A program made the position numbers and the translations under genes. 64,000 nt of DNA from Mesostigma viride. Lineage: Eukaryota > Streptophyta > Mesostigmatophyceae > Mesostigmatales > Mesostigmataceae. The notes under the pieces were generated by a model that was not told where the DNA came from, did no database searches, and saw only the letters and a list, made by a program, of their open reading frames with translations. Location: NCBI GenBank assembly GCA_009746045.1, contig RPFO01000165.1:956546-1020545 (forward strand). Reading direction: 5' to 3'. Each line of letters starts with the position of its first letter. Within the stretch, counting starts at the first letter, position 1. Positions 28,312 to 64,000 of the stretch are shown piece after piece.

Positions 28312-28502
28312 GTTCCTCCCGTTAGGAGTTTCCATTGGTCTTATCGTAGTATAGAGATTTGACATGGCTCTGTATAGAGGTTTATAGCTGGGCGTTTGCT
28401 TTGGTTTGAGTGATTTCACTCTGCTGTAAGTAATTATATTATTAAAATATATCCGGCCCTCGGCCACTATAGATTCTCTGCTGCCCATGTGCGGCGTGGG
28501 AC

Positions 28503-28736
<234 letters not shown>

Positions 28737-36190: not shown

Positions 36191-36757
36191 CTGGTAATCG
36201 GAGGATTCGTCTAGGGCCACCCTAGCTCGTACAGAGCGGGCAGGGCCTCGTGATCTGCCTGACGAGAATTCGGTGATCTGCACCAAGACGGCAAGAAACG
36301 ATAACATCGCATCCGCAGCAAATAGGTGGGCACGCAGCCATGGTGGTTGTAGGGCGCGCAGCAGCCATATTGCTCGCTCTGTCCCTCCTCTCTCTGCACG
36401 CGTAGAGCGGTGTTGTGTGCGCCCAGCCCTGTTTTCTTGTCGTTTTCATGTTTGTGCTGTGAGCGCTGGCTCTGGGTACACCGGCCTCGCTCGTTGGTTC
36501 ACGCAGGCCATAACCGTACAGGCTGGCTTGCGAGGGACTCCGCGGGAGTGGCTTACGTGCTGGGGCCCGGTACACGGGCGGGTTGTCACGTAGGTTACTC
36601 CCTTGTGCTGACAGGTTTTCCTGTCTACGTAATGTCGTTGCGTTCTTAGATTATAGGGCCTGTTGGCAACCCTTGTGAGCAGGTGATGGTCACTCACTAG
36701 AGGTACTCAAGGTTCCTTCTTCTCTGCCTATCCCTGCCTGCATGCAATAGACGTGGC
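36191..36757 (+). promoter_or_regulatory. Chromovirus leader with candidate primer-binding site
   Basis: CTGGTAATCGGAGG directly follows the 5' LTR. It starts with TGG and partly resembles initiator-Met-type binding sites (TGGTATCAGAG), so it is a candidate minus-strand primer site. The rest of the leader has only overlapping short ORFs. Confidence 0.4.
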
Positions 36758-39360: not shown

Positions 39361-40817
39361 TGTCCCTCCCCTTGGGGGTAGAAGTAGCGGTAGCTCAGGT
39401 AGATAGGGTAGATAGCGTAGTAGGAGTAAATAGTGTAGATAGCAGTAGCTCCGCCGTACAGGCACCGTTAGTTGCGGATACCGGCGCGAGTATGGAGCCA
39501 GTTGGTGAGGCTCCAGCCACGGCTACAATTCCGGCTTCGGGCAGCAACGCGGACGCCCCGCCGACGCATGCAGCCCCGAGGAGTGCGGCCCGCAGCTTGC
39601 TCCTCTTTCGAGGGGGTCTGGCAGTGCCATCAACAGCACTGGACCCCTTCCTCAAGGGCAAGACTGTCATGGACGTGCAGTTCATGGTCGACACGGGCGC
39701 TTCCACGTCATTCATCAATGAGGCACTGGCGCGTCGCGCTGGCTACACTATACGGCCACACGCGACAGTGGTAAATGTGACTTACTCAGATGGTCGCAAG
39801 AACCCCTCGCCAGGTCTAGTCGACATCAAGGCGGTGATTCAGGGCATCCCTGTGGAGCTTACCGCCACTGTCGCGCCGCTGGGCGCAGCCGATATCATTA
39901 TTGGCATTGACTGGATGGACGCTCAGGATGTTGACATCAGCATTAAGCGTCGCGTGGTGTGGTTCCCCGACGGCTCCTTTTGGAGTCCGGTTGGCGAATA
40001 TCAGGCGCAGGGTCCCACTGTGCACAACGTCACGCACGAGCGGGAATTTACCCAACCCCGCCAAGCCTCACAGATCCTCATGAGCATCAAGTCGTTGGAG
40101 GGCAAGCTGCGTCAGGGCAAGGAATACTACATGTATCGCCTCGACCTCGCTGCCGTGGAGCTCATGCTCAATGAGATCGGTGTGGGCTTCACCCCCGAGG
40201 AGACTGAGCGCTACAATGCGGTGTTGGCAGCACGCGCGAAGCTCTTTGATGAGAGTAAGCAAGAGTTTCCCCCGCCGCGCTCGGTGCTCCACCGCATCCA
40301 ATTGCAGGAGGGCTATGGCCCTACGACGTCCCCTATGTACCGCATGGGTCCGGTGGAGCTGGTGGAGCTCAAGAAGATCTTGATGGCGCTTCTGGAGCGG
40401 GGTCTCATCGAGCCCAGCAACAGCCCCTTCTCAGCAGGCGTGCTGTTGGTCCCCAAGCCTGGGGGCAAGTGGCGGCTCGTCACGGACTATCGTAAGCTGA
40501 ACGCTATTACGGTAAAGTCAAAGTACCCTCTCCCCCGCATCGACGATATCTTCAACCGCGTGCAGGGCGCCACATGTTTCACCGTCCTTGATTGCGCAGA
40601 CGGGTTCTGGCAGTTAAGGATTGCGCCGGAGGACTGTCATAAAACGGCGTTCAACACGCCGTTCGGCCACTATCAGTTCCGTGTGGCCGCCATGGGGTTG
40701 TGCAACTCCCCTGCGAGCTTTCAGATGCTCATGAATGACATACTCCGCCCAGTCATGGGAACCGCGCATCTCCCGCAGGTTTCCCGTGACCTCGAGGACC
40801 CCAACCGGGGCGCGAAG
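39361..40817 (+). CDS. pol: Chromovirus Pol, part 1: protease and N-terminal reverse transcriptase
   Basis: The frame lies -1 relative to the end of gag and overlaps its stop, as for translation by -1 frameshifting. Protease: FMVDTGASTSFI (about 39690) with IIIGIDWM (about 39900). RT: GLIEPSNSPF, KWRLVTDYRKLNAIT, CADGFWQL and AFNTPFGHYQFRVAAMGLCN. It breaks at 40817, where the nested copia element begins. The frame continues exactly at 49136 if the element and one CGAAG repeat are removed, so the interruption was the first event to break this part of pol. Confidence 0.93.
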
Positions 40818-41516
40818 AGTTAAAGCGCAATGTGTAGGGATAGATAGATTCCAATGCGCGCGGATAGATTCATCATGAGAATGGTTGGAATGGAGCTTGG
40901 TTAAAAATATAGGCTTACAGCACTCGTGCACATAAGTGCTTAGACACGAGTTTGCCAAGTCAAGGCAACACACGTGAGGCGGGCTCACAAGAGATCTAAC
41001 CAGTTGGCACTGGCCTATTCTTTATATACTTGTGCACTGTGCTTTGCTAGGCCTGAGCAGCCTCGTAGGCCTGCTCAGTATTAACACCCCCGGTACAGTA
41101 TTAACAACCTGTACAGCGTCCAGATCCTATACAGTAGGTCTGCCATACAGGCACAGTGACCACAGAGTACAGTCCACAGTGATTATTGCGTCTGCACCCA
41201 ATAGTCCAGGACTAAGCCTGCGGTACCAACAGACCACAGGTTAAGGTTCCTATTTCCTGCGTACGACGTATTAATCGAATACCGTCGTAGGTTCAGCACC
41301 TAATTCCTGTCAGCCCAGGAATTACTGTCGACCCCATATGCCGTCGGCACATATTCACGCGCGACTTAGAAGAACAGCCGGCTCGCGCTCGCGCGCGACC
41401 GGGAAGTCGGAACGCCATAACTTTCTTGATACTTGTCGGAATGACCTCGTTCCGGTGCCGCTGGAATCGCAGAGATATGCCGAATCAGGATCCCGCCAAA
41501 GCGCTTGGCGTTAACT
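40818..41516 (-). repeat. LTR of element N (3' LTR on the minus strand)
   Basis: 699 bp, apparently identical to 48432-49130. The terminal inverted hexamers AGTTAA and TTAACT differ from the common TG/CA. Confidence 0.92.
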
Positions 41517-42263
41517 CCAATCCTTTCTTTTCTTGAGCTGTAGCAGCTCACACAAGTCTACATACAAACACACACAATGGGTACTGGACATCCTCCCCGA
41601 CTACAAGTCACAACCCACTGGGCATGACAGTCAGCTTGGATTCCTTATTATATGTACATAGCACCCATACTGGTTCAGGAGCACAAACAAATTACAATGA
41701 GTCCCTATCCCTTCCTGGGAGGCTCGCTGTGTTACCCATGTACAAGAGGTTGGCCAACTGTGGCAGCCCATAGGTGTTCAGTGAAGAACTTGAGAAGTAT
41801 GTACAACCTTCAGGACCTTAGGCGAAACCCCACAGATCACCCACAACAGCTCATCAGAAAACATTGCTGACCCCCAGACGGGAGTCGGCGCCGGTCTGCT
41901 GCCCCTTATCGAACCAGACACAACATCTACGCGAAGCACATGCAAAACACAAGCTCCTATACTCATTCCAACCGTGGAAAATCAGGGGACCTGTCGCCAC
42001 CTCACCAGCATGGTGGATGGGTCAGCCAGTCCGTGAAACTCCGCCTTAAGACGGCACCAGGGAATCGAACCCCGCCCACAAACCACAGATCTGGGGAAAC
42101 CTCAGACTGAGATGAAAACCCCAGATAGACATCTCTCCATCAGAGACAATGTCAGACATTCCCACACCAGAGACATGTCTCACCCCTCAAGGTGTGCTCA
42201 GGATTATGTACAATCAAGCTCCCAGCCTGATATCCAGAGACTTAAGCACCCAGCTCTCAGCTT

Positions 42264-43309
42264 TTAGACAGATAGACCAACTTGACAGTCAGCATTCATG
42301 AGCTTCCTCAGTACATTGTACTGGGCCGGGGCCTTGTGTGGCAGCTTGGTCAATGCATCAGCAGGGTTTTCCTCGCCAGGGATATGCTTCAAGTCAACCA
42401 AACTGGCCAACTCCTTTAGCAACAAATAACCCAGATCTCGGCTCCTGGCCAGCTGCTTGTGAACAAACTGGACCATACCCGTGCTGTCTGTTATAGCACT
42501 AACGTCTCCATCTGCAAGGACCAAGGGGTAACTGAAGCCAGCTCCAGCATTAACTCCTTTATGTACAAGCTGGACTGGATCCCCTCACATATGGCCCTAC
42601 ATTCTGCCACATCTGAACTGATACAGACCCTCTTCTGCAGTCTGCTGTACCAGCTGAACAAACTTGCCCTGCTCTGATAGAAAGCAAACAGAGCAGCAGA
42701 TCTCCCCCTGACCTTAGTGACCTGGCGAGCATCCATGGAACTGTCAACAAAGATCTCCAAGGTGTTAGGCTGGGCAAAGTCAATCCCAGACAAAATCAGA
42801 TCAGGGGTACTCTCCACCAACTGGGCTATGACGATCGAGGCTTCTCATCCTTAGCACCTCATCAGGCATTCTGCTGTGCATCATCAATGATAGGGCCCAC
42901 AGGTGGCAGCTAACAAACCACGTCCACATGCCTCTCAACTTGGGACATGTCGTGATAAGCACTAACATCTCTAGTGGCAAGGACCAAGGGATACATATCT
43001 GAAGCAAATCCAGCAAACAACGTAATGTTATTCTTAGGCTAGATTGTCCAGATCCCCTCTCGTAGGTCCTTCAGCCTGCCACATATGCCCTTATCCAGAG
43101 CACAGATCAACCCTCACATACAAACTGTACATGTCAGGCTGAAACTCATTCAGGAACAACCATACTGATAACCATGAAGCAACCATCATTGCAGGGTACA
43201 CATAAGCATCAGATGATAGAGGCACTGAGAAGAAAACCCCACCCAGGCTGAATAAGGCACCACACCGTGGAGCCAACCTTGGGCAACCTCGTGCACAGAT
43301 CCATATCAC
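42264..43309 (-). pseudogene. Copia RNase H and RT remnants of element N
   Basis: Minus-strand pieces: FVDSSMDARQ...YSRLQKRVCISSDVAECRAI (42760-42590), then HIPGEENPADALTKLPHKA (about 42390-42330), the typical copia RNase H ending. They align with element M (MDSSMESRQ...YSRLHRRKAVSSNAAECRAV, and VEDKHNAADALTKVP). Less certain RT pieces lie at 43309-42801. There are many frameshifts. Confidence 0.75.
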
Positions 43310-44679
43310 ATCTGACAGTGTAACACCCCGAGGTCAAACATCAGTACTTAAGGTTTTTCAGTCCCTGAAACATGTCCTCAGACCAGCCAACTCCCATATC
43401 ACCCTGGGAGAAACCAAATCCATGGTTTTACAGCAAAACAGTCATGGACAGAGTAAATCATCCCAAGACCAGCCAACTCCATAATGAGGAGACAACCAAA
43501 CTATATGGTTTCACAGCATCACATCTGGGATCAATCATAACTTCCAGGCCAGCCAACTCCAAACTAGGAGAAACCAAATCCTATGGTTTTATAGCAACAC
43601 ACCTGGGAACCATCACAACTTCCATATGCTGATTGTCATACAGCAATCAATCTGAACATGCACAGGCCAGGGACAGGGTCAACTGGAATCACACATCCAT
43701 CATCAGCAACTCACGTATGCAGATGCTGATCTGTATATACCCTCCACAGTCGGCCTTCAGCATTCAGCAGGTTTCAGATTGCTCTTGAAGCGTCCTCTGC
43801 AGGCTCCATAGTCCCGGACCTTGTAGACTGGAAATTTTCTTCAGGAAGCTTGTGCCAACCCTTCAAACATAATCTGGTTTCTTCTCCATCTGGTAGCCAA
43901 CTTTAAACATGCTGCACTGTTCCAACATTTTCTTTCTTTTTGAGGACATGATAATTCCCCAAAGCAGCATGGTTGCTACAAGAAACCATATATGTAAGCA
44001 ACTGCCAAAACGGGAGACCAATATAAATCTGGCACTCAGCCATGTATGTATCCCCTGGCAACACTCAGGTACTAAGTTACCTCCTGCCACTCTGACAGCC
44101 TGAACTCAACAGGAAAATCTGGATCCACTTGCTTGACAATATTGTTAGCCCCCTCAGGACACTGGTCTGCATCTCTGGAAACTGGAATCTCTGGAACTCT
44201 GGAACTCTTGAATTCTGGAAATCTGGATTTCTGGATTTCTGGTTCATCACCTTCAAGCTCGACAGGTATCACTGGGCAGCTGAAGCTGACAGCATCTCAG
44301 GTTCACTTGCAGACACAGAACTCTGGACCCAGCAACACTCCAACGTACCACATTGGAGAATCCAGGATTAGGAACCCCCTTGCAACAGACCCTGCAGGTC
44401 TTGTACATAGTATGGGGGAACACTATTATGGATAAACTGTAAATACAGGAGTGATATTGCAGAATATACCATGAACACTGCTTGGATGAGGAGCAATGCT
44501 GCCAATGGTTATATTTTCTGGCAACCTGCCAGTGCATATCGGGTATCATCAGTTTTCCATTAACACTGGAAAGTTAGGGTTTATTAACCAACTGTTAATT
44601 TTCCCCTAAGGCATGTTGAGGCCCTTTCCACGTGTGTCCCAACACAAAGCTAGACACCCAGGGGCAACTTGGCTCACCG

Positions 44680-44760
44680 ACCAGCAGTTCTCCTGTATGC
44701 TGACCAAGATCCCATGTCAGAGACCTGAGCATTGGTATCCACTTTAACCCCTCCACCGTC
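44680..44760 (-). pseudogene. Protease active-site remnant of element N
   Basis: The minus strand reads VKVDTNAQVSDM at about 44745-44710, then stops soon after. It matches the protease motifs of elements M (VDTQAQVSII) and P (VDTNSQVSVI) and lies upstream of RT/RNase H in the direction of reading, as in those elements. Confidence 0.6.
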
Positions 44761-47700
44761 TCGCACTCGTGCCTAAGGTGAGTCACCAGTTTCATAGTAC
44801 GCCACAGGTGCCCCCATTCAGCCTAATTATTATTTCTAGACCATGCTGGGAACCAAGCATCCCCATATGAGGGCCCACCTGGGAGTATAGTGGGTGGTCC
44901 CAGTACTAGCCCCCCCTGCTCTATAAATAGCACCCCCCTCAGGGGGGTACGGTGAGTGTGCGCGGTGACCCACTTACAATGCATGATAGACCACTTTTCT
45001 CAATAAGTTGCCCCTGGGGTTGGTTTTGTAGATAGATTTACTAGTTAGGATGGGATACTAGCACTAAAAATTGTAACTGCCCCAGGGGCCCACCAGATGG
45101 AGCTAAAAATAACTGGTGACTCATTTGAGTCACCAGTTTAGGGGGGGCTAGAACAAGCATTCTAGTGCAGTTTTGAACCTGGACATGATAGGTAAGCATG
45201 GAATATTGGCAAACATGCATGTTAACGCATATTTCAACCTGTGTGCCACCAATATTCACCATAACCACTGCCGCATATGCTTGGAGACAGCTGCGCGCGG
45301 GTCGCGAGTATAAACTTCACAACCAATGCATGATGGACCACGTATACCTTGGATTTCACCCTAGTATTTCAGGGGGGACTGTAAGTGTACCCAAGCACTA
45401 CATCCAAGCACTTCCATGTCTTGTTTCACCCAGGGACCCACAAGATAATGCTCAAAATATCTTATGACTATTTTGAGTCACCAGTTTAGGGTACCCTGTC
45501 AGCTTTGACCAGGGTTTTCACCCTGGTCCGGTGGTCAGATACAGTCTTTCAAGAGTGCTACGGATAGAGTGAATCTAGACCTTTCCAACGGTCCTATTTT
45601 TACCCGCGAAAACCTTCCCGCGAGATTTCTACAGGGCGCACAAACTCATGCCGAATTCCAGTCATGAGTAAAACTCGTGGTCGAAAATCGGCACGAGGAC
45701 GGTTTAGGGGTTAACCCCTAAACCGTTAGCAGCCTCAGGACGTAGCACCTGGATGAGCATGCTAGCCATCTTGGCACCATCTTGTGCTTTGCCTAGCCAA
45801 GACCACAACATTAAAATCTCTCAGGGAATCCTCCCAACGCAGTTATAGGCGCACACCCGATCAGGCCTGGTGTTTGGCCGATCAATCCAGGGGTGCAGCC
45901 TGCCTGTCTGCTTGCCCAACCACCGTATATGAAGGTACCCCAGGGGGCTGGCCAGGGTCACCCTGGGGCCTCGATACAGCTGTAGCAAACTGATCCTCTG
46001 CATTACACCTGCAGCTGGCAAAGCTCAGGTACCCAGGTATAACTGACTCCCATCAGCTTACCTGTCCTTGAATGGCTGATCACAGAACAGGCATATTATT
46101 GCTAAGGTGATGTTTCCAAAACCACTCAAAGCATTTATGGCCAACTGGTTTCCACCTGGCTCACCACGCCAAGCCCAGCTGCCTAAACCTTGAAAATCGA
46201 TCAGATGCAAATGCTTGACTTCAGATTGTTGGCACAAATCAAAACATCAAACCGAACACTTGTTAGACCCTTCCCACACTTCAATCCAGAAGAGGTACTT
46301 CCTGGGTCTCGATCACTAATTACACACCAGCACATGGTGGTAACGGCCAACCGCGAGGCCCTTATCCACACCCTTATACAACTGTAATAAGGGTGCCCTT
46401 CCCTGTCATGCACTAGACCAGGGGCATTCTGCACAATGCTGTGAGTTGCCCACCCTCACACATCAATACAGAGATCACATGGGAGCTCAACCTGACCCTG
46501 TGCAAACAGGCCAGTCACCAACAACCGTCAAATTATTGCAGTAATTTGGAAACACATTCAGCATCTGATCCCCCAGTGTGTTCATGCTTCAAGGAATAGC
46601 AACACCATGCTAGACCGAGCCTGGGGCTGTCCCTCACATATCCCTTAACAGGAATGATGTACTCAACACCCGCTCGGGGACACATTCAACATACAAGCGG
46701 TGGAGAAAACGGCATGTTACTTGGCCCTCAAGCCCCTTCACACGCAGAACAGCACAACTGTGCTAGATTCGGCTACTGCATACATGACCCAGAAACAGCA
46801 CGTCTTCAGCGAGACCTCCGGCTATGGGAACCCTTCAGCTCTCGCCTTATACGCCATCTGGCTACCCCCGACCAACAAAACCATCCCTGCCTGCCAGTCG
46901 CTGACTCAGGAAATGCTGACCTTGTAGGAGCTGCCTGCCAGTCACGTACACGCGCGCCAACTAATGATGGACGCACCATCCATTAATTCCTCGCAAACTC
47001 CACGAGTTCTGCAATCACGGCCTCAATGCCATGATTCTCATAGCGCCATACCACATATAGCAGTGGAATGCTGAGAGCAAATATGCAATTAACTGCAACC
47101 GGCAGCCATCATTTGCCATCGCTCTACATACTCTAGATCTGCCGCCTGCGACATACCCGGTCGCTCGCGACATACCCAGTCGCCTGCGGCACACCCAGTC
47201 GCTCGCGACATACCCAGTCGCCTGCGACTCGCGCCAGCATACTCGCGTCTCGCCCGGTCGCCTGTGACATTCTAGTCGCCCCGCGATACTTCGCCTGGCC
47301 ATCCGCTCTTCTTGCTGCCATCTCTCGCCGCAGTCGATGCCCGACGTCCTCGCGTCGCAGCAATGCAATCATCACGTCGCGCAGCACTGCCATTATTAAT
47401 TTCAACAACACCGCCGACCTTGCCGCTTGTCGACATTGTCACCCGCGACTCGGAAAATTAACCAGGAACAACTTCTTCTCGCTGCTCCCCAGATGCCGAC
47501 GCTCTCTCGTCGCAGTCTACACAACTTCACCCTCTAGCTGCCGACACGCCCACACCAGCGCCGTTCACAATCGCTCATCAAGCGGTATAAAGAGAACTCG
47601 ACAGCAATCTGCAGCTTTGCAATATAAATCTGGAAAGATTGACGATGGATAACTCCACACCGCACAAACTGCAACCTTGGAGATGACGCCTCGCGTAGCT

Positions 47701-48431
47701 CCTCGAGCTCGCGACCAGCACAGCTCGCAGCTATGTCGACTACATGCATGCGCGAAAACTCGCCAGCATACTCGACAGTCAACACCAGCCGAGCTTGTCG
47801 TAGCCACCACTGCAGCAACATGCTTGACCGCCACCCATGGCAGCGAAACGCCTTCGCTTGACGACAAATCTCGAACGCTTGAAACTCGTAGCTTCACTCA
47901 GCTGCAAAGCATAGCCATGCCGCAAACCGGAACGCAACCAATGATCTCGACTCGACGATCCATGCCGAACCGCATGCGCAGTTGACTCTTGATAAATCTG
48001 GATAACTCGATCCATTAAAACCCAGCAACCCACAAGGATCACTAAAAGCCGATTCCGCAACATCTTGTCATCAGGAAATGCGAAACAGCCAGGAGCGCTC
48101 GTCAACACGTAGCAGGCCAGCAACGAAACTCATTCGTCGCCAATAACGTGCCCGCAATCTGGATAGCTCAGGAAACCTTCACGCAGCCAATCCAGCTAGT
48201 CCTGGCGTACAAACGCCCACCAACGACCTCCAAGATAAACTTAGCCTCGGTCGTCGTTGGGAACTCAACCATTCCCGGAACGCATCATAAACCGATAATC
48301 AGCTGCTACGCCCTTCTATCCGCTAGTCTCGATTCCGCGAGTATCCGCAGCAGTCCAGCGCAGGATTAAACTCGACGATGAAGCCCAGGCAGTAAACCGC
48401 CTTGATGGAACCGGAACATCGTTGTAATTTG
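44761..48431 (-). other. Interior of element N, no intact gene
   Basis: By position this should hold gag and integrase, but only short ORFs remain and none has a motif I can identify. 47150-47290 contains a short tandem of TCGC..GCGACA.ACCCAGTCGC units (about 24 bp). 41517-42263, between LTR and RNase H, and 43310-44679 are also without clear coding. Confidence 0.5.
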
Positions 48432-49130
48432 AGTTAAAGCGCAATGTGTAGGGATAGATAGATTCCAATGCGCGCGGATAGATTCATCATGAGAATGGTT
48501 GGAATGGAGCTTGGTTAAAAATATAGGCTTACAGCACTCGTGCACATAAGTGCTTAGACACGAGTTTGCCAAGTCAAGGCAACACACGTGAGGCGGGCTC
48601 ACAAGAGATCTAACCAGTTGGCACTGGCCTATTCTTTATATACTTGTGCACTGTGCTTTGCTAGGCCTGAGCAGCCTCGTAGGCCTGCTCAGTATTAACA
48701 CCCCCGGTACAGTATTAACAACCTGTACAGCGTCCAGATCCTATACAGTAGGTCTGCCATACAGGCACAGTGACCACAGAGTACAGTCCACAGTGATTAT
48801 TGCGTCTGCACCCAATAGTCCAGGACTAAGCCTGCGGTACCAACAGACCACAGGTTAAGGTTCCTATTTCCTGCGTACGACGTATTAATCGAATACCGTC
48901 GTAGGTTCAGCACCTAATTCCTGTCAGCCCAGGAATTACTGTCGACCCCATATGCCGTCGGCACATATTCACGCGCGACTTAGAAGAACAGCCGGCTCGC
49001 GCTCGCGCGCGACCGGGAAGTCGGAACGCCATAACTTTCTTGATACTTGTCGGAATGACCTCGTTCCGGTGCCGCTGGAATCGCAGAGATATGCCGAATC
49101 AGGATCCCGCCAAAGCGCTTGGCGTTAACT
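48432..49130 (-). repeat. LTR of element N (5' LTR on the minus strand)
   Basis: 699-bp partner of 40818-41516. It contains AAGAACAGCCGGCTCGCGCT. No TGG-type primer site follows it on the minus strand, so the primer used is unclear. Confidence 0.92.
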
Positions 49131-49135
49131 CGAAG

Positions 49136-51872
49136 CCCCCGTGGTCCTACAAGCGCACTTGTGCGCTCGCATACCTGGATGACATCTTGGTGTACTCCAA
49201 GACCTTTGAGGATCACCTCGAGGACGTCGCCACGGTATTGCGCATCATGGAGGAGGAGAATCTTTCGGTCCGCAAGGCCAAGGTCCGCGCTGGTCGCAGC
49301 GTACCGTTCCTCGGTCATACCCTGTCCGCTGCCGGCGTCGCGACGGACCCCTCCAAGATCGCCTCCATCCAGCAGTGGCCGACCCCGACCAACGTCAAGG
49401 GCGTGCGCAGCTTTTTGGGTGTCGCGTCGTATTACCGACGTTTCATCCCCCGTTTCGCGACGATCGCTGCCCCCATTAACGCCCTCCTCAAGAAGGGTGT
49501 TCCTTTCGTTTGGTCGGAACCGTGCCAACAGGCCTTTGAGGCCCTCAAGCGCAGCCTGACCACGGCCCCCGTGCTCGTTATCTCGGACCCGTCCAAGCCC
49601 TTTGTGGTCGCAACGGACGCGAGCAAGGTTGCAATCGGCGGTGTCCTATTGCAGGACCAGGGTCAGGGGTTGCAGCCGGTCGAGTACATCTCCCGGACTA
49701 TGATCCCTGCCGAGCGCAACTATCCGGTACACCAGCAGGAGCTTCTTGCCGTGGTCTACTGCTGCCATACCTGGCGCCATCATCTTCTCGGGGCCCAGTT
49801 TGACGTTGCCATCAGCGAGCAGGGGGATCTTGATCCCCACCGGCTGATCATCCACACGGATCATCGGCCCCTCACGCATCTGCTCGCCCAACCCAACCTG
49901 GTGCCCCGTCAAGCACGCTGGCTGGAGTACTTGTCCCAGTTCGCCCCCTTTAAGATTCAGTACGTCAAGGGTGCAGAGAACGTGGTCCCAGACGCCCTTT
50001 CCCGGCGGGAGGACTACTGGTTCTATGAAGATCTGGGAGTACTACATACCACTTGCGTCCCAGCTCAGGCGCCCGCCGGCACGTCCTATGGTGACCTTCC
50101 GCGGTCGCCGCAGGCTCGTTATTTGTTTCACACGGGTCGTACCACCATGGACGACCTATCCCCCGACTGGGGTTCGCACGAGGACGTGCGCGCCCCCGGG
50201 GAAGGGGAGGGGTCCCATTCGCGCTTGCCACTCAGCCACGTGGTCCCGGCTCAGGGAATTTTTCACTTGCAGCCCATTGGGTCCCCCACCATTTTCTCGG
50301 AGTACGTATACCAAACCCTCGAGACTGAAGAGGAGGCGGATGCGTACACCGTCACCTCCGTTCTGGAGACGCTGATCAGCCGATTCACCGTCACGGAAGC
50401 AGCAGCCCTGGAGGCGATCAGGTCGCACCCTCAGCAGATGGGCAAGCTCCCGTGCAAGTTCCAGGACGGACGACTCTATGTCATGGTGAGACCTGACTGC
50501 TGGCGCCTGTACGTCCCGGAGATATGTAGAGCGGCTCTGCTCCATGAGCTCCACGACTCCCTCACCGGTGGCCACCAAGGAATCCATCGCCTGCTGCCGC
50601 GGGCCGAAAGAACTTCTACTGGCCAGGTATGCGGGAGTACATCGAGACGTACGTGCGCGAGTGTCCATCATGCCAGATCATGAAGTCCCGCAACACGGGG
50701 TCACAAGCGATCCCCAAGACGCTGCCTGACCCCATGGCGCCTTGGGACTCATTGATGATGGATTTTATTGGCCCCTTCCGGAAGACCAAGCACGGCAACA
50801 GCATGATCTTGGTTTTCTTGGACCGCCTGACGCGCATGTGTCACTTGGCCCCATGCCCGGCCGAGCTCACGGCTGAGGCTTGCGCTAAGTTGTATCTCCA
50901 CCACGTGTTTCGGTACCACGGACTCAGCCGGCAATTCATATCGGACCGTGACAAGTTGTTCACGGCTCGCTTCTGGCAGGAGTTCTTTGAACGACTGGGC
51001 ACCAAGGTGTCATTGGGGACAGCGTACCACAGCTCGTCCTCTCACCTGGTGGAGCGACTGAACCGCACAGTGCAAGAGACCATGCGACACTACACTGACG
51101 CGGTGGGAGGCAATTGGGAGGAGTTTCTGGGCTTGGTGGAATTCTCCTTGAACAACGCCCCCCAGGCGGCCCATGGCCTCACGCCGTTCTTCCTCAACAC
51201 TGGCAGGCACCCGCTTACGCCGACCGACCTTCTCACGAGCCCCGCTTTGGCAGAGAAAACGGTCCGGCGGGACACCCTGGAAGGGGTGGAGAAGCTGTTG
51301 GTTCAGATGCGTCAGGCCCATGACAGCGCGGTCAGGGGCTACCGAGCCGCAGCCGAGCGCTATATGGCGAGGACCGCTAGTCGCCTGGACGCGCGCACCC
51401 CTCGATTGAGGCAGGTGACTGGGTTCTGGTGGAAGGCCCCCGACTAGGACGTTTCTCCGAGAAGGTAGGAGGTGAGCTCAAGACCAAGCTCCGTCCTATG
51501 TTCCTGGGGCCTCACAAGGTCTTGGAGAAGCTGGGCGATGTGATGTTCAAGGTCGACATCCCAAGCTCCTGGAACACTTCCCCCAACTTCCACCGCGATC
51601 AACTCAAGTTGTATCACCAGAACTCCATCCAAGGTCGCCTCAATCCGCCGGCCCCCGTCGAATACAACCCCGAGACCGGTGAACAGGAAGACGAGGTGGC
51701 CGAGATTGTGGACCACCGGGACATCCAGCGCGGGAGAAGCAGACAGCGACAGTACCGAGTACGATGGCGTTTTACCCAGCACGACTATGAGGACTCATGG
51801 CGTACGGAGAACGAGCTAGGCGGATGTGAGCGCCTGCTACGGGAATACAAGAAGAGGTGTGCCCTACACTAG
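49136..51872 (+). CDS. pol: Chromovirus Pol, part 2: RT end, RNase H, integrase, chromodomain
   Basis: RT catalytic box YLDDILVYSKT (about 49170). RNase H with VVATDASKVAIGG and HTDHRPLTHL. Integrase zinc domain (HELHDSLTGGHQGIH ... ECPSCQIM), catalytic D (MMDFIGPF), then D-x35-E (SDRDKLFT to VERLNRT), then GDWVLVEG and a GPY-like LRPMFLGPHKVLEKLG. The C-terminal chromodomain (about 51689-51850) has VAEIVDHRD, YRVRW and an ENELGG helix. Frameshifts occur near 50596-50620 (inside the zinc domain) and near 51395-51415. Chromodomains in this clade direct integration by binding histone marks. Confidence 0.93.
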
Positions 51873-54681: not shown

Positions 54682-55297
54682 TGTTACGGCCCTAACCCAT
54701 GTTTGGGCGTAACAATTCCTAAAATAAATTAGTTTGGTCAGTCGAAAGTCATTTTGATATTGTTTGAGACTTTCGATAGTTATTATGTTAGATTCGGGGA
54801 CTTGGCCGAGTTATTCCATCACCCGGCCCAGGTACCCGTGGCTTTGCTTTCGGTTTGGTGTGTTACTGGTCTGTACCCGGGACTGCCAGGTACCGGGTGC
54901 CAGACTGGCGGATACTATGTACATCTACGGCTGATATTAATTGCAGGCTGCGCTAGAGGTTCGGCCCCCAGCCGACCCGCTAGCATGCACGCCGTCTTGG
55001 ACAAATGTCGTAGGTGACAATGGCTTCCCATCTTTGGTTTGGAATAAAATCGACTTGAGTAAAACTCGTCTGCCAAACCAGGGGTCAAATCTGGGCTGCA
55101 CTAACGCCCTTCGTGCATTCCATGTATATGCATAATTTATCTAGTTGTGCATTCAGGGCCTAGCTAGTAATTCCGCGTACTGGCTAGAATTCAGGGCTAC
55201 ATTCACGTAGTCCGGGCGGATAGCAGATTCCGAGTTTATTCAGGTGTAACCCACACTAGACTAGGGTCTTTCAGAGCCGATGGTGCGGCTCGTAACA
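54682..55297 (+). repeat. 3' LTR of the chromovirus
   Basis: 616 bp with the same ends as the 5' LTR. The three visible differences are all A in place of G. Confidence 0.95.
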
Positions 55298-55301
55298 CCT
55301 G

Positions 55302-56737
55302 CTAGGCGTCCCCCCGATGGAGCAGGGTTGTCTGCTTGCCATACGGGTTCATCAGGTGGTACAACAGCTGATATTGATCAGCTGCCTGCTGAGGCACTTT
55401 AGTGAGTGCGTCAGCAGCATTGTGCTTGTCCTCCACGTGACGGGTGGACTCCCAGTAGGTGGACTCCTGTTTAAGGACCACCCAGTCAAGATCAGTGTGC
55501 ACAGCATAGGGGTTAGCAAGGAAGCTGAGGACTGACTGACTGTCAGTGAGCACGTGTGCAACCACCCCAGCACTGCTGCCTGCTTGCATCTGCAACCAAA
55601 CCAGCACATGATTCAAGTACCTTGCATGAAGCACTGCTGACACCACTGCCCTGCACTCAGCAGCATTGCTGCTGACAGCCTTGCGTCTATGCAACCGGCT
55701 GTACCATGAAATGAGAGACAAGGGTGCGTCATCATTCTGCACAAAATACAAGCCCGACTCCCTTGCCTGCAACTTGGTGATCTGCCTGGACTCCATGGAA
55801 CTATCCATCATAGCTTGGATGTGAATGGTTTTGTGGAGATCCAAGGAATGCAAGATAAGGGGAGGGCCTTCCTGGAGAGTTTTGGTGATGGCTTTGTGAC
55901 CTACTTGCATCAAGACATCATCATCAACTCTGCTAACCACAGCCAGGTGAGGTGCACACGTTGAGCACAACCACCCCAGCTTGCCTCTAATGGTGGGACA
56001 GGCACCAGGCTTGATTTTTGATTGCAGAACCTCCAAGCAGCTGTGCATGTAATCAGTAGGAGAGTATAGTGCACACACCCACTGGTTGTTATGCTGCATT
56101 GCTGCTGGAGTTGTAACATTGTGCCACAAAATTTTATGGCAGTGGTGCCCAGCTCTACTTGCTTGCCAATCTCAAAGTGCTGTGACACTTGTTGAGTAAA
56201 CTCATCTACAACACGCCTTGGCCCAGCAATCAGCTGATCATCCCCATGCCACACAAAGGTGAGTATGCCATGAGCATGAGGGTGTGGGACCACAAAGAAG
56301 CAAGGGTCTATGTCATCATATCTAGCCCCTAGCTTTTCAAACACAGCCTGAGCTGGCATCCTGAAAATGCGAGGGGCTGATTGCAGCCCTTCAACACCTA
56401 TGTTAGCTTTCAGGTACTGCTGAGGGATATGTTTTGCCCAAACTCTGGGAGTGGAGACTACATACACCTGACCATGCCACACTTGTTGTGCTATCTCAGG
56501 TGAGCCTTTCAAGCCAAGCCCTTTAATGTCTGTAGCCTTTATACATACATAATCATCCCCATCATTGAGATGACCCACAAAGACAGACAGCAAGATTTTT
56601 AAAGAAGTTTGCTGAATGCCTGGCGTGTACAGCTCTGCTTCTGTCAGATCAGTGGTGCCCTTGAACTCTGTCACACAAGGTCTAGCATGAAAAATGACTG
56701 ACCCATCTGCTGCTGGCTGGCTTATGTTTACACACAA
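55302..56737 (-). pseudogene. Reverse transcriptase and RNase H of element M
   Basis: RT: TEAELYTPGIQQTSLKILLS, IKATDIKGLGLKG, GLQSAPRIF, ARYDDIDPCFFV and the catalytic box FVWHGDDQLIAG (about 56250-56220), with HGDD where copia normally has YVDD. Then RGKLGWLCSTCAPHLAVVSR, a typical copia link, and RNase H (IQAMMDSSMESRQ, SNAAECRAV, LTDSQSV, DKHNAADALTK). One frameshift lies between RT and RNase H in the overlap 55910-56129. Confidence 0.85.
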
Positions 56738-56808
56738 ACTTCAGGCGCAAGTGCTTGCACCCTGCAGGCTTTTTGTCAATAGGTGTGACAGGTGGAGTGT
56801 GAGAGGGG

Positions 56809-57426
56809 CTAAGGGGATCTGGCACAGTCTACCCATTCTTCCCTGGCCTTGTTGAAGGCCTCCACCCATTTTAGGAAACCTATGTGTGTGCGACAGTCTT
56901 GCTCTATCTGTTCATAAGAAAGAGGGGACATTTTAGCCACATCATGCTTGCCCAATCCAAAGGATGTGGGATGAAGTTTTTGGTTATGAGCCAAGTCTGC
57001 CACACAAGGTTCTTGCCCTGGGGCATACTTGGGGGTAGCAAATTTTACAGAAGCAATGTTTGTGTGAATAAGTTTTTGAAGAGAAATTTTGAAATGATTC
57101 AGATCAATACCACCCAGGTCCTGGATGGCCAGTCTACTACTGGAGATAATGACACCAGGGTAAGAGAGAAAAGGATCACCCAACAAGGCATTACCTTTAT
57201 AACCTTCCAATACCTGGAAAGGGGTTGGGATACCAAGAATAGTCAACATGACCTGACCTTGTACCTTGAGTGATGACTGCCCTGAGAAATCAGCCACATG
57301 GTGCCAGGGTGAAGGTTCCAAAGGCAAATGGGGCACAGCCAGTGCACTAATAATGCTGACCTGGGCTTGTGTGTCCACTGCAACCACGAATGGACTATTA
57401 TTGTCATTCTGCCCAACCTTCCCCAC
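56809..57426 (-). pseudogene. Retropepsin-like protease of element M, located after integrase
   Basis: Residues 13-26 read FVVAVDTQAQVSII (catalytic Asp 18, at 57373-57375), then DFSGQSSLKVQGQVML, then NALLGDPFLSYPG. This is the retropepsin pattern hydrophobic-DTGA ... flap ... (I/L)LG..FL, with Gln in place of the conserved Gly. About 120 further residues follow (KFATPKYAPGQEP ...) that probably link to RT. Known role in copia: cleavage of the polyprotein. The position between integrase and RT is not the usual one. Whether it is active is unknown. Confidence 0.75.
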
Positions 57427-57494
57427 CTTAGCTGATCCTGCAGCAGTTTGAGCTTTAGCTCTATGGGCTGATTGTAGAATGCGAACAGCTTCTG

Positions 57495-58080
57495 CTAGGC
57501 TGCGTTTGGAATCAGTGCAGCTAGTGGCTGAGCTATGTCCACAAGTGAAGAGGTGATAGGTTGCTGATCACCTGTTTTGCCAATTTGACCCTCTGCTGCA
57601 AGGGGCCAAGCCTGCAGTGACTGCCTGCAATCATCAAGGGTGACCTGGGTGTCACAGTGGTTGTGGCTCTCACACTCACCAGTGGGTGTTCCAAACAACC
57701 ACTCACTGGGCAACGCTGGGATGCCAGGCAATTGTACAGGGCTGTCGGCCAACAGCTCTTCCTCCTCTGCCACGTCTGACACAGTTGGAAAATACAATTT
57801 CATCTTGTGAGGTGAACACCTGTGAATCTTACCCGGCGTGTCATTGTGCACTGTCCTGCCAGTGGTGTTAAACTTTAGGATGGTGGCTGGCCCATGCCAG
57901 GTACCCACCTTGCCTAGTCCCGACTCCTTGTAGAATAGGACCTGATCCCCTTCTCTGAAGGTGGGACGTGGATGCTTTGCATCCTTGACAGCTAACCTGC
58001 TAGCTGTATGTGCTCGCTGTGCGTTGTATAGGGCTAATGCAGTTAGCATTTTGGGCAACCAATATGCTAAGTGGATGCAG
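57495..58080 (-). pseudogene. Integrase C-terminal part of element M
   Basis: Contains ALYNAQRAHTASRLAV, FREGDQVLFYKESGLGKVGT and WHGPATILKFN, an SH3-like integrase end. It aligns with element P (VGLKVRMWKEPSIPGKRGKW ... QDGVVTRVEE). The tail after about 57780 is acidic and unique. The DDE core itself is missing because element P begins there. Confidence 0.65.
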
Positions 58081-58129
58081 TTTGGAAAGACCTTTCCAAC
58101 GCCGTGCTGACCGCCTGAAACAGACAAGG

Positions 58130-58720
58130 GACGAGAAAGATATGAAGTCCCGAAGTCCTAGCCGTCCGTGGCCGACTAGGGTGCAGTCCTCTGGTATAGT
58201 GGACAGGACACGTGGCAGGCCGTGCCTGCACAGGCTTAGCCTGACTATCACGTGACTGTGGTCCACGTAGACCAGAAGGAGCAGCAGCCTGTGACTGGTG
58301 GGGTACTGGAGCTGGCACAGGGCTGCAAAGATACTAGGCCTTGCAGGCTTGTGACAGGTCCTGTACTTCCTAGGTTGCAGAGTCTAGGCAAATCCAGTTC
58401 GTCCTGGTTCTGCACTGATGCCAGTGGACGTTGAGGATTTGCTTGCACGCCTGCACGTGCCTCGTCACGCCGATGGGAACGAGGAACAACACAAAGGATA
58501 TAGCTTGGTCATGGGGGATGACCAGCTATCTTGGCAAGCACGAACCGAGGCTCCCACATTGGACGTTGAAACGCTCACCGTGGTCGTGGCTTGGTGCACG
58601 GGTTAAAAGGTTGCTGCCCTGCAACTTTGGCTCATCCCGTTGTGTGCGTGAAAGACCAGGAGCTCACGCTCTGGCTTTGTTGCTAACTCGTATTATTGCA
58701 TTCCTGTTGCGAGGTTTTCA
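58130..58720 (+). other. 5' LTR/leader region of element P
   Basis: Non-coding DNA collinear with the decayed fragment at 755-1240. It begins where element M ends and lies before the first ORF. The LTR boundary inside this stretch could not be placed. Confidence 0.5.
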
Positions 58721-59877
58721 TGTCGGCCGAAGCTCGGGCAGAAACGCCTGAGTTGTCTTCTCCCAGTCGCCAAGCAGCACCGGAGCCGCCGGCGCGCGAG
58801 AGCTCTTTTTATCCCTATACTCATCGATCCAACGCCTCCACCTTCGTGCAAGCGGCATACGTTGCGCGGGGGCTTGCTGAGGGTGGTTGGGTGGCTGTGT
58901 TCGGAAACGCAGCAGGGCCGTCGGCGAACGACTCGGTGGTGATGAGGATCCGGGCGAAGACGTCGCCAGGTGAAACAGGGAGAGTGTGCACGGAGCGTCT
59001 CGTAGGTATACGAGACGAGATTGCTTCGTTGATTTACAGTCTGGAAGTTGCGTACCAGGGCGGGCACGTGACAATTCAAGCACTCGACTTGGCACAAGAA
59101 ACGCTGAGTCAGCTGGTGGCCATCTGCTTAGGTGGTGCCAGATTGTACAATCACTGGGTGGCGACGAGCTCTTTGGGAGAGGGCACCGACGCGTCGCACA
59201 TAATTCGGGACGCGCAGACGCGCGAGGAAGACAACCCGTGGGATTCCGCCGAGGTCGTTGCTCAGACCTCAGTGTGAGCATTTGGTCAACATATTGATCC
59301 AGGAGTCGCGGGGGCACGCGGACCACTGGGTTATCACCACTTGTCCGCCAGGCATCTGGTCAACCTTGGACACGCCCAGAGTGCATAGGGCGCCAGGGGC
59401 GACGGGGCCAACTGTGACGGTAATCACCGGTTGAGAGGTCACCGACGAGGAGTTCCACGATCAGTTTGTGGACCGACCGACAGGCATATCATCGCCAGGT
59501 CGTCGCAGCAAATCGACGAGGGCGACGGCACGAACGAGGGGTACTCCACTCGGCGTAGGGCAGAGTTGCACATTCCCTTTGAGCCGGAGCACGATTTTGC
59601 TGAGATAGGTCGGGGTTCTCGCAACGACCGACAGGGTGGTGGTAGCAGGTGGGTCAGGAACCTTCAGTGGTATCGCTGGGGCAGCGCGCCCAGAGTGCCG
59701 GTGGAGCAGACAGCAGCCGGGAGGCCGGTGAGCCGTGTGCTTGGTCCTTACAACGCGGAGGAGGTCCGCGCAGTTCCTCGAGTGGGGACACCCGTGGCGC
59801 GCACTGCGCAAGAGCGTGAGGAGGAGGCAGCACCTGAAGAGCAGCCGACGGCCTCTTCAGGCAGTACCAGCGCTTGA
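58721..59877 (+). CDS. Accessory ORF upstream of gag in element P, unknown, frameshifted
   Basis: ATG 58721 (MSAEARAETPELSSPS), open to 59277, then continuing in another frame as EHLVNILIQESRG ... TVTVITG (59277-59433), then EVTDEEFHDQF and a hydrophilic Arg/Glu-rich end (stop 59877). If one protein, about 385 residues. The first part shows alternating strands and a helix (GWVAVFGNA, SVVMRIRAK, IRDEIASLIYSLEVAY, HVTIQALDLAQETL). This order is reminiscent of an RNase H fold, but the first catalytic Asp is absent and I regard this as a guess. It lies about 50 nt before gag. Confidence 0.45.
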
Positions 59878-59930
59878 GCCTGTTCTTCTTTGCCTTTCGC
59901 CTGTGTTGTTTTGTCGTCCCACTGTATATA

Positions 59931-61286
59931 ATGCCTCGTGGCGAACCGGGCGACGGCGACAAGGGCGAGGCGGAGGCACCGGCTGGGGAAAGCCAGGAGC
60001 CTAGGAAGGACAAGGAGCAGCTGGTGGGGGAGGCAATCCCTACCAGCGACGGCGATGGGGGAAAGCGGCCAGGGAGCAAGAGGCGGCACGAGGACTCGGT
60101 GGAGGAGGCGCGTAAGGCGCGGGCGACATGGCCATCTGACGCGATGACGGTGGCAAACGGGCAACCAGCCGTGGAGAAGCGTAAGAGGGACACCTCCGCT
60201 GACGGCAATGGTAAGAGGCTTCATGTGGATGTGCCCTCCCATGCGCCTGCTGGCTCTAGTGGTGCTGTTGTTGTGACACCCGCTGTGGGGGAGCCAGTGA
60301 AGGCGGTGCCAGGGTCGAGGCCTCACATGAGTGCAGTTACTGTCATGAATGGACAAAAGCCTCTTAACCCACCACTAGCACAGGAAGCTTTAGACAAGTG
60401 GCTAGAGGACATGGAGCTGGTTGTACTCTCCGTGGACCCCACTGTCAACCTAGTGCAGGTGTTTCACTCGTCCACGTGCAACAGGGACTCCTCAGAGCGT
60501 GTCGGGGAGAAGACTAGGACGGCTGTCAAGGATAAGCTAACCTGGGCTCAGTTCCTGGATGGGTTGAGGGAAGAGTTCTCTGATAAGGTTCTCAACCTCA
60601 CCAACTATTATAAACACCAGTATGACACCTTTGAGATAGTGGGCCCTGTGGCAGAGGAATGGGCTAGGCTCAACCGTATCAGGGACAAGGGGGCCAAGTA
60701 TGGCTTCCTGGTCACAGATAGGGCCTTGGCAGATTATTTCCTGGACCGTATGGGTTTGAGTGTGGATGGTAGGAACAGTGCCCGCATGTTTCTGAACCAG
60801 ATTGATGGCTCCTTGCGTGCTCTGGAGCTTGTAATCCTCAGCATAAGGAAGCCAGATCCTGCCTGCAAGGCTATCCAGTCCCATGGCAGCAATGCCACCT
60901 CCGCTGTGCAGGGCCAAGGTGATGTCCCCGGGTACCCAGCCCATGATGGGGCAAGGCCTAACAAGCGTAAGCGCTTCAGGCGTCAGAGGCAGGGGGCTCA
61001 GGGTGGCAAGGGTGCAGGTTCCCAAGGAGGGGTTGGGAGCCAGCAAGCTGGTGGTCAGCAGGGTAAGGGTGGCCAAGGGCAAGGCAAGGGCCAAGCTCAA
61101 GGCAACCAGGGCAAGCAGGGTGGGCAGTCTCAGGGAGGCCAGGGAAGCCTGGCAAGGGTGGGGCTGGGTCTGGGAAGAAGGGTGGAGCATGCTTTGTGTG
61201 TGGCAAGGAAGGTCACTGGCGTCGTGAGTGCCCTGACAGGAAGGCCAAGCCTGCTGGGGCAGGGGGCCAGTCTGGGCAGCAGTGAC
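59931..61286 (+). CDS. gag: Gag of element P with CCHC knuckle in a shifted frame
   Basis: ATG 59931 (MPRGEPGDGDKGEAE). Capsid-like part at about 60360-60860 (LAQEALDKWLEDMELVVLSV, TWAQFLDGLREEF, AEEWARLNRIRDKGAKYGFL), then a Lys/Gly/Gln-rich repeat of GGCAAG and CAGGG words. The zinc knuckle CFVCGKEGHWRREC is at 61190-61231 in another frame than the body, so a frameshift lies in the repeat-like stretch at about 61060-61185. Known role: particle core and RNA packaging. Confidence 0.8.
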
Positions 61287-61333
61287 TAGCTACATCATCC
61301 CCTGTAAATAGTCAATCACCCCTTGGGGAAGGT

Positions 61334-62851
61334 GTGCTGGATGTACATAAGGATGGGGGTGTGCCCCTTGTGCAGCACCAAGGGTGTAAAGATGTTGTTC
61401 TTCCACTGGATTGCAATAACAATGCTGCAGCTGAATTCCCTATGCCTCATGCAGGTGGTGGGTCTCCAGCAGGTGCTGGCCTGGAGGGCCAAGGGACCTT
61501 GCTGGAAGGGCCTGGAGCGGTCCAGGGTGCAGGGCCTGGCTTGGGGAGTCAGGATGGCCTGCAGGGAAGCCCTGGAACCTCAGGAGTGGATCATGTGTCC
61601 CCACACACGGTTCAGACGTCTCGCCAGGTCAGTACTGAGAGAGTGCTGAGCTATGCTGAGGCTGGCCATAGATTGCATCACATGTTTGGGCATTCTGGGC
61701 AGGCAGCAATGTTTGCTTGGAAGCTAGGTAGGGAGCCTTTGTGGGAGGCTTGCCAGGCTGCTGCTGAGAACTGTGGTTGCCAGGAGAATGCTGTTCACCC
61801 ACCTCAGTCCCATGCTAGGGAGCCTGCTAGGGAGCGTGGCGACATCCAGATGGATATCCAGCATATCAGGGGCTTGTATATATTGGTGGGGGTGGACAGG
61901 TTCAGTAGATACAGGCTGATAGACGTTCTGCCTGGTATGCAGGAGCACCACTTGTTGTTGGGTATGAAGGCCCTGATCCCAGGCTTTGGGGTGTGCAAGA
62001 GTGTGCAGGCAGACTTGCAGTTTGACTGTTTGCTCAAGCATCAGGACCAGCTGCCTTGTAAGCTGGTAGTAGTCCCCAGGAGAGTCATGGGCAGCAAGGG
62101 GCTGTAGAGAGATCCATACGTGAGTGAAGACAGTGGTGCTAGCAGCAGAGTCAGTGCCACTTGTGGCATCTGCCTTAGAGAGGGCAGCCTGGTGTAAGGG
62201 GATAGAAGAGCAGCTGAACCACAGGGTTAACTATTACTTTGATGGTGTGGCTGTCTCTCCCCTGGCCCTGCAGTATAGCTTATTACCTGAGAACGTGGTG
62301 CAGGCCAGTCTTAGGAAGGCAGATAGGTTGTTTGCCCAGCTGAGACGTAAGGACAAGAACTGGAATGTGCTGAGGCCTCAGGTGGGGCTGAAGGTCAGGA
62401 TGTGGAAGGAACCATCTATTCCAGGCAAGCGGGGGAAGTGGCAGGATGGGGTTGTCACTCGTGTGGAAGAAGCTAACAGATCTTGCCTGGTGGCTTTGGA
62501 AAAGGATCCAAGGCACGTGTACAGGTTGTCCTGGGCTCATGTCAAGGAGAGAAGGCCACATGCAATCTGGCCTGCAGACGGGCCAGGCCCTCCCAGCTGG
62601 GTTGAGGAGCCAGGCCAGAGCCAGGCAGCAGCAGCTAACAATCCTCTGGTGGTGGATGATGGTCTGTCCCTGCTGGAAGATGACGAGCAGGAAGAGGCTG
62701 CTGAAGCAACTGTCACAAGGCCAGAGGGGACGGGGCAGCCACCTAAGGCCCGGGGGCCTCTCATGGCGGACGTCATCCGAGCACTCATGCGCAGCAAACA
62801 TGATCCCAAGGTATCCAAGCTCACGGGGTGGGGGTCGTGCTGGGCAGCTAC
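61334..62851 (+). CDS. Integrase of element P, directly after gag
   Basis: Linker, then zinc-binding GH(R)LHHMFGHSG with downstream Cys pair (EACQAAAENCGCQ), core DIQMDIQHIRG...ILVGVDRFSRYRLIDV and VQADLQFD. The Glu-containing motif QQGAVERSIRE follows at about 62090-62122 in a shifted frame, then a helical region and the C-terminal domain (PQVGLKVRMWKEPSIPGKRG). A basic/acidic tail runs to the protease. No protease motif occurs between the Gag knuckle (61231) and the zinc domain (about 61660). Copia integrases insert the cDNA into host DNA. Confidence 0.8.
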
Positions 62852-63227
62852 AATGGAGGTAGATACCAACTCACAGGTGTCTGTCATCAGGGAAGAGGAT
62901 GCTGTAGGCTTACAGATGTCCCATCCCAGTTGCCTTGCTGTGTCTGATTTCTCAGGAAAGGTGTCCATGAAGATCCTTGGGGAAGTGAGTGTGCCTATCT
63001 TAGGGGTGCCCACCACGTTCTGTGTGGTAGAGGGCTATCAGGGGCCTGCCATTCTGGGTCAGAACTTCTTGTGCATGCCAGGGGTTACTTTGACCTCTGA
63101 TGAGTTGGCACTAGAAGGCAGGGGCAGCCTCCCCCTTGAAAGATATCACTATTCCCAGGGTCTTGCAGTGGCGGTGAAGGCTGTTAAGAGTCAGCAGCTG
63201 AGGGTCCTCAAGGTCAGGAGCCCATAG
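62852..63227 (+). CDS. Retropepsin-like protease of element P, between integrase and RT
   Basis: Same frame as the integrase C-terminal part (62124-63227). Active site MEVDTNSQVSVI (Asp codon 62862-62864), DFSGKVSMKILGEVSV, then GPAILGQNFLCMPG. The triplet is DTN in place of DTG. The downstream strand and flap match element M residue by residue at many places (VSDFSGK/VADFSGQ, ILGVPTTFCVVEGY/ILGIPTPFQVLEGY). The stop is TAG 63225-63227. Confidence 0.78.
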
Positions 63228-64000
63228 CTGAGGACCTGTTGATCATCCCAACCACCTTTGATCCACGGCAGTTAGGGGTAAACAGGTACCAGATAGCTGC
63301 TCACAGTCCTATTCCCTGGCGCCAGCTAGTCGAGATGATGCAAAGCCCCAAGATGGCTAAGGCATGGACTCTTGGCTTTGTTGCTTCTGGGCATGAGTGG
63401 ATAGTTTCCAACTGTGCAGAACCTGTGGATGAGCTGCCAGAAGTTCACCAGCTGCTCAGATTGATGTTTGTCCTCAAGCTCAAGGAGGTAGATGGTGTCC
63501 AGGTGCCACATGTGAGACCAGTTGTAACCGAGTATCATGGCACTGGCCAGTTGTTAGATGAGGAGCTCTATACTCCAGGGATGCTGCATGACACGTGGAG
63601 GATTCTGCTGTGTATATTTCTGTCTTTTCTGGTTAAGGGTGTGCCCTATAGCTCTGTGCTGATTGATTTCAAGAGGGCTTTTCTTAAGGGTGACCAAGAT
63701 CAGGCTAGGCAGACTTGGAGAGATATCCCTCCTTTCTTTGTGACTGTACCTGCTGTATGGAGAGCAGAGATAAAGGCCAGGTACCTGAGAATTCTGAAAG
63801 GGTTGGAAGGTCTCAGGTCCAGTCCCATCATCTGGAGAAAGAGCCTAGAGAAATTCTTGAAGAATACCTGTGGGTTTTCTGTGTCTCCAGTGGATCCCTG
63901 TTTGTTCCAAGGGTCCCACAATGGCCTCCCTGTCTTTGCCTCACTGCATGGTGATGACCTGCATCTCATAGGTCCACCAGACTGGGTTGAGGCTGTTTTG
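63188..64000 (+). CDS. Reverse transcriptase of element P, partial (window edge)
   Basis: Open from 63188 to the window end in the frame -1 to the protease ORF, overlapping it by about 37 nt. Motifs: TEYHGTGQLLDEELYTPGM (similar to TEAELYTPGIQ of element M), VLIDFKRAFLKGD (copia DVKTAFLNG equivalent, about 63655-63695), GLEGLRSSPIIWRKSL, VDPCLF and FASLHGDDLHLIG (catalytic box at 63947-63958). The -1 overlap could be a programmed frameshift or a mutation. RNase H should follow outside the window. Confidence 0.85.

Follow-up and report, generated by a model that had tools for sequence, protein, structure and literature searches.

A retropepsin-like domain between integrase and reverse transcriptase in Copia-type elements of Mesostigma viride

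Elements in the window and their domain order

The right third of a 64,000-nucleotide stretch of the Mesostigma viride genome (contig RPFO01000165.1, positions 956,546 to 1,020,545; the window) contains three remnants of Copia-type long terminal repeat (LTR) retrotransposons: elements M and N on the minus strand and element P on the plus strand, the last extending from 59838 to past the window end (Table 1). In M and P a retropepsin-like domain (PR) was found behind integrase (IN) and ahead of reverse transcriptase (RT). We estimate a probability of about 0.7 that these two elements represent a Ty1/copia-type lineage whose pol order is IN-PR-RT-RH (RH, RNase H) and not PR-IN-RT-RH. Two protein searches returned ten different proteins for comparison (P0001 to P0010), two of which, P0007 and P0009, represent the sequence of the window itself and are not independent.

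Analysis of element P confirmed that the coding order IN, PR, RT is really present in the sequence. One open reading frame (ORF, 62124-63227) holds the IN C-terminal region followed by PR, with the pattern VDTNSQVSVI...AILGQNFL, and the frame breaks of P lie after the start of the IN core (62107) and between this ORF and RT. The IN C-terminal region was identical to residues 270-514 of P0001 at 170 of 248 positions, and the Pfam family rve matched the IN region at 61286-62107 and an outside relative at E-values of 0.034 and 0.051, both below the cut-off. The Gag label of the first ORF is based on its position and the zinc knuckle, as it had no Pfam match; the knuckle is in a different frame from that of the main Gag ORF, and pol continues in the knuckle frame beyond the TGA stop.

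Element M, on the minus strand, encodes between 58157 and 55305 first the IN C-terminal region, then the PR-like domain and RT, and finally an RNase-H-like region. The ORF at 58157-57498 is followed by a second (57567-56812) in which the pattern VDTQAQVSII...ALLGDPFL is situated. The IN core of M was undetected with P0001 as the query (27 of 50 shuffled sequences scored as well). Both elements carry frame breaks. Together, these data bore out the first-pass annotation, made from the sequence alone, in its placing of a retropepsin pattern after the IN C-terminal domain and before RT in both M and P.

The RT pieces of M and P matched the Pfam family RVT_2, not RVT_1, the match of P having an E-value of 8.5e-5 (below the cut-off) and that of P0008 an E-value of 3e-7, 0.9 bit below the cut-off. 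An HGDD catalytic box was identified in M (56740-55913), P (63188-64000), P0006, P0007 and P0008. The first 179 residues of P0007 are identical to the window, and the protein extends past the window end into the RNase-H-like region. Conservation of the region after RT was evident from 62 of 160 identical positions between M and P0007; this region presumably carries the Copia RNase H motifs, and a Pfam scan of it in both sequences returned no RNase H family. The probable 3' LTR of M is one copy of a 617-bp repeat found by window self-comparison at 54682-55298 and 35575-36191 (99.5% identical), the second of which may be a solo LTR.

Table 1. Positions of the identified parts of elements P, M and N within the window.
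Feature	Position	Strand	Evidence
P: Gag-like ORF, 483 aa	59838..61289	+	ORF list
P: Gag zinc knuckle CFVCGKEGHWRREC, CX2CX4HX4C	61190..61231	+	Translation and positions
P: TGA stop (61283-61285) then CTAG, knuckle frame	61283..61289	+	Sequence
P: IN zinc-binding region and catalytic core start	61286..62107	+	P0001 match, 178/277 identical
P: end of IN core and IN C-terminal region	62124..62645	+	Match to P0001
P: retropepsin-like domain, DTNSQVS (Asp codon 62862) and AILG	62808..63155	+	Pfam gag-asp_proteas
P: reverse transcriptase, HGDD box, cut by window end	63188..64000	+	Pfam RVT_2
M: IN C-terminal region	57498..58157	-	Frame-tolerant alignment to P0001, 0/50 shuffles as good
M: retropepsin-like domain, DTQAQVS (Asp codon 57375) and ALLG	57082..57429	-	Pfam gag-asp_proteas
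M: reverse transcriptase, HGDD box	55913..56740	-	Pfam RVT_2, E 0.0018, below cut-off
M: end of RT and RNase-H-like region	55305..56171	-	38.8% identical to P0007 residues 211-367
M: probable 3' LTR, TGTTACG...CGTAACA, 617 bp	54682..55298	-	Self-comparison
N: whole element, identical 701-bp LTRs, decayed interior	40817..49131	-	Window self-comparison
N: PR remnant VKVDTNAQVSDM	44748-44713	-	Motif match
N: RNase-H-like region	42829-42267	-	Alignment, 0/50 shuffles as good

Conservation of the order in two families and in outside relatives

Comparison of M and P identified the PR core as the best-conserved block between the two, with 36 of 84 positions identical and no gaps (43%; 39% over the whole retropepsin-like domain at 62808-63155 of P). 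The RT regions were identical at 62 of 167 positions (37%) and the linkers at only 18 of 84 and 28 of 106 (21-26%). Judged by these values, M is a member of a different family from P and no copy of it.

Several proteins from outside the window span parts of the same arrangement. In P0003, a Mesostigma viride gene model, a single frame spans the IN C-terminal region, PR and the N-terminal region of RT; the protein is 93-94% identical to M in two blocks (100/106, corresponding to the IN C-terminal region, and 215/232). P0002 and P0005, both from Prorocentrum lima, run in open frames from within PR into RT, P0004 from Lingulodinium polyedra covers PR and the start of the linker to RT, and P0001 (M. 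viride) begins just behind the point equivalent to the UGA stop of P and comprises the interval before IN, in which no PR could be recognized, and IN itself as far as the PR boundary. The remaining proteins cover RT regions (P0006, P0007, P0008 and P0010, the last a Mesostigma viride model to which P is identical over 67 residues) or PR only (P0009). The interval before IN was therefore tested by one of the ten proteins (P0001), the IN-PR junction by one (P0003) and the PR-RT junction by three (P0002, P0003 and P0005); none of the proteins covering these intervals contradicted the order IN-PR-RT, and the other relatives do not test it.

The coding order is thus conserved between two divergent families and relatives outside the window. 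Because it is common to the M and P families, P0003 and the Prorocentrum lima proteins, we consider it a feature of a lineage and not a local rearrangement. The first-pass annotation had argued for a distinct lineage from three copies in two orientations; two divergent families, gene models and transcripts supported that conclusion, with N a possible further member.

Element N has LTRs that end in GAGTTAA...TTAACTC, with GAA flanking both sides, and lies within a Ty3-type element, the RT of which is divided into parts at 39279-40823 and 48905-50683. Across all six frames of the window the motif D[ST]xxQVS had exactly three occurrences, one apiece in M, N and P. It was present in 2 of 1000 shuffles of the N interior, and 60 shuffled windows contained it 0.07 times on average, with a maximum of two. 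The earlier statement that N keeps the protease motif in the matching place held for the motif itself; the full PR profile in N was marginal (3 of 100 shuffles as good), and neither RT (5/50 and 27/50 shuffles as good) nor the IN core (17/50) was firm. The same applied to the IN C-terminal region, for which 1 of 50 shuffles was as good with the P0001 query and 16 of 50 with the M query. With nothing firm beyond the PR motif and the RNase-H-like region, N hints at a third copy of the IN-PR order, and it is M, P and the sequences from outside the window that carry the case for the order.

In its main block (62763-63194), P0004 of Lingulodinium polyedra is identical to P at 143 of 144 positions. 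This near-identity may reflect contamination or horizontal transfer.

Search for a protease upstream of integrase

Between the Gag knuckle (61190-61231) and the HH motif of IN (61676) element P has 148 residues, including one stop, and D[ST][GNQ] was absent from all three plus frames of 61100-61680. This agreed with the first-pass observation that nothing like a protease lies between the Gag knuckle and the IN zinc domain. Searched with the M-family PR, the region before the IN of P gave a score that 13 of 100 shuffles equaled, compared with 0 of 100 at the PR of P itself; with the PR of P as the query, the corresponding values in M were 82 of 100 upstream and 0 of 100 at PR. A Ty3 PR query gave a high score in the gag region of P, equaled by 1 of 100 shuffles; the alignment ended at 60470, in a part with no D[ST]G. 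As this query also failed to pick up the PR of P and that of M at their true positions (30/100 and 27/100 shuffles as good), we regard it as uninformative on a second protease. D[ST]G was found three times in 59838-64000 (at 60635, 61908 and 62129), which we read as chance. The relatives likewise gave no sighting of a DTG protease before IN, a finding that had been expected to speak against the altered order, although P0001 is the only one of the ten to cover the interval and contains there one VDSGSQ, in a G/A/S-rich stretch not common to P.

Nature of the PR domain

Once trimmed, the PR domains of both M and P matched a single Pfam family, gag-asp_proteas, which also matches the protease of the window's Ty3 element (1.4e-11). 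The match of P had an E-value of 0.041 (0.021 when trimmed) and covered positions 11-90 of the 92 in the model; that of M had an E-value of 0.049 (0.027 when trimmed) and covered positions 6-91. In a profile alignment of PR with the Ty3 protease, VDT was placed on VDT and ILG on IIG, with a P-value of 0.017 versus 0.19 for the reversed profile. In the PDB, human ASPRV1 was the top match of a two-sequence PR profile, with the Asp in register (E 0.79). The active site is DTN in P and P0004 and DTQ in M and P0003, and the downstream hydrophobic-hydrophobic-Gly is present as AILG in P, P0002, P0004 and P0005 and as ALLG in M and P0003. From these resemblances we infer that the domain after IN would be an aspartic protease that acts as a dimer and cleaves Gag-Pol.

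Several observations weigh against this assignment or against the order itself. The gag-asp_proteas matches of M and P, trimmed or untrimmed, are below the Pfam cut-off (E 0.02-0.05), the match of P0004 had an E-value of only 0.11, and no Pfam match was obtained for the whole ORF of P, P0003 or P0005. The HHalign probability of the alignment with the Ty3 protease was only 2.7%, and other PDB searches with PR placed unrelated proteins first. The Gly of D[ST]G is replaced in the active site, the Asp-Thr being retained. AlphaFold models of the domain had mean predicted local distance difference test (pLDDT) scores of 35.8 and 47.6, too poor to judge the fold, and fold searches with the poor model gave nothing significant; structure prediction, which had been proposed as a check, thus spoke neither for nor against a retropepsin fold. 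In addition, the interval before IN was tested in P and P0001 only, and no intact whole copy was among the sequences seen, M, N and P all being broken.

Relationship to known retrotransposons

LTR retrotransposon superfamilies are defined by domain order. P, M and P0003 share with Ty1/copia an IN that precedes RT, and the elements also resemble that group in their RVT_2-type RT, the Gag knuckle (CX2CX4HX4C) and the LTRs. They differ in having PR after IN, with a DTN or DTQ site, and in P no protease was found between Gag and IN. The RT box is HGDD, whereas YVDD is the usual box of Copia elements. The Ty3/gypsy arrangement, an RVT_1-type RT with IN after RNase H, was not found either, as IN precedes both PR and RT; the elements resemble Ty3/gypsy and retroviruses in that PR is directly before RT and shares its Pfam model with the window's Ty3 protease, and differ from them in the position of IN and the Copia-type RT. 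Because the position of PR is a defining feature, we class the group not as an ordinary member of Ty1/copia but as a variant lineage that falls either inside or close to it.

The IN of P0001 was read as a zinc motif HX3HX26CXC with D-52-D-31-E, compared with HX4HX30CX2C and DD35E, a D-E spacing of 35 rather than 31, in Copia IN (PMC3587641). The order GAG-PROT-INT-RT-RH was given for 5410 plant Copia elements in a survey that in every case removed elements of unexpected order as likely mispredictions (PMC6317226, section 6), so a lineage of IN-PR-RT order could be missed by design. The Gmr1 lineage, comprising Ty3/gypsy elements with a Copia-like pol order, is a precedent for a whole lineage with altered pol order (PMC2774666); in Gmr1 it is the IN of a Ty3-type element that has moved, whereas the elements described here combine an RT of Copia type with a protease located on the opposite side of IN. 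GalEa-like Copia elements, present in red algae, have a variant PR site, DTGC, but retain the order PR-IN-RT-RH (PMC3587641). The available part of the Troyka report (PMC12440569) describes no gag-IN-PR-RT order, and a thin literature check found no published account of one. If our reading is true, the protease of a Copia-type polyprotein can flank integrase on either side, which would change the cleavage products, and these elements would serve as a natural experiment on the extent to which the active site of a retropepsin may deviate from DTG.

Alternative explanations

The broken state of M, N and P, with N mostly unrecognizable, could be taken to mean that the order is an artifact of decay, produced by local rearrangement of broken copies or by a retropepsin pattern arising by chance. 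We consider this highly improbable, as two families at 37-43% identity have the same order, D[ST]xxQVS is confined to a single occurrence in each element, and P0002, P0003 and P0005 carry their junctions in open frames, P0003 by itself already contradicting such an artifact. A less remote, but still unlikely, explanation is that a retropepsin-derived or retropepsin-like domain is present that does not cut, with processing in trans, by the host, or by an unrecognized protease elsewhere in the element. DTN and DTQ in place of DTG and the sub-threshold protease matches would fit such a domain, but the PR core is the block best conserved between the families, and P has no D[ST]G with protease-like surroundings in a Gag-to-IN frame. 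Moreover, the proteases of foamy viruses are active with DSQ, so inactivity does not follow from the third active-site residue alone.

A different matter is how the order arose, and the answer is compatible with a true IN-PR-RT-RH lineage. Either IN (or a block bearing it) moved before a Ty3-type PR-RT-RH, or the elements lost their Copia protease and acquired in its stead a retropepsin, Ty3-like or cellular, ahead of RT; we rate such an origin as plausible but less than probable. In its favor, PR and the window's Ty3 element match one and the same Pfam model, and PR has the shape DTxxxVSxI rather than the Copia DSGA (PMC3587641). Against it, RT matches the Copia-type RVT_2, and taken in its entirety the element is therefore not Ty3; the PR domain is too short and too divergent to support a tree.

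Proposed expression and processing

If the elements have the order IN-PR-RT-RH, PR would act as a dimer within the Gag-Pol polyprotein and cut on both of its own flanks, freeing IN on its N-terminal side and RT-RH on its C-terminal side. The unit beside RT would then be PR-RT, as in retroviruses and Ty3. For P-type elements only, we propose that pol would be expressed by readthrough of the UGA after Gag, yielding Gag-IN-PR-RT-RH, in which case IN, PR and RT would all be low in ratio to Gag. UGA followed by CUAG is a context that favors readthrough. The RNA after the UGA stop of P folded no better than shuffled sequences, and the UGA is either a natural stop or a lesion of a broken copy.

More broadly, we tentatively suggest, at somewhat under even odds, that these elements are an old, separate lineage of Pseudoviridae in streptophyte algae and possibly dinoflagellates. 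Its original protease would have been lost or moved and a Ty3-like or cellular-type retropepsin with DTN or DTQ would have come to lie beside RT, giving IN-PR-RT-RH with an HGDD RT expressed via UGA-CUAG readthrough.

Other features of the window

Self-comparison identified a tandem array at 6913-9163 with units of ~393 bp that are >99.8% identical, and short-period tandem arrays at 1-158 and 28494-28736 that match each other in opposite orientation. Two long overlapping ORFs are present at 24809-28311, the product of which resembles a non-LTR reverse transcriptase with a YLDD box.

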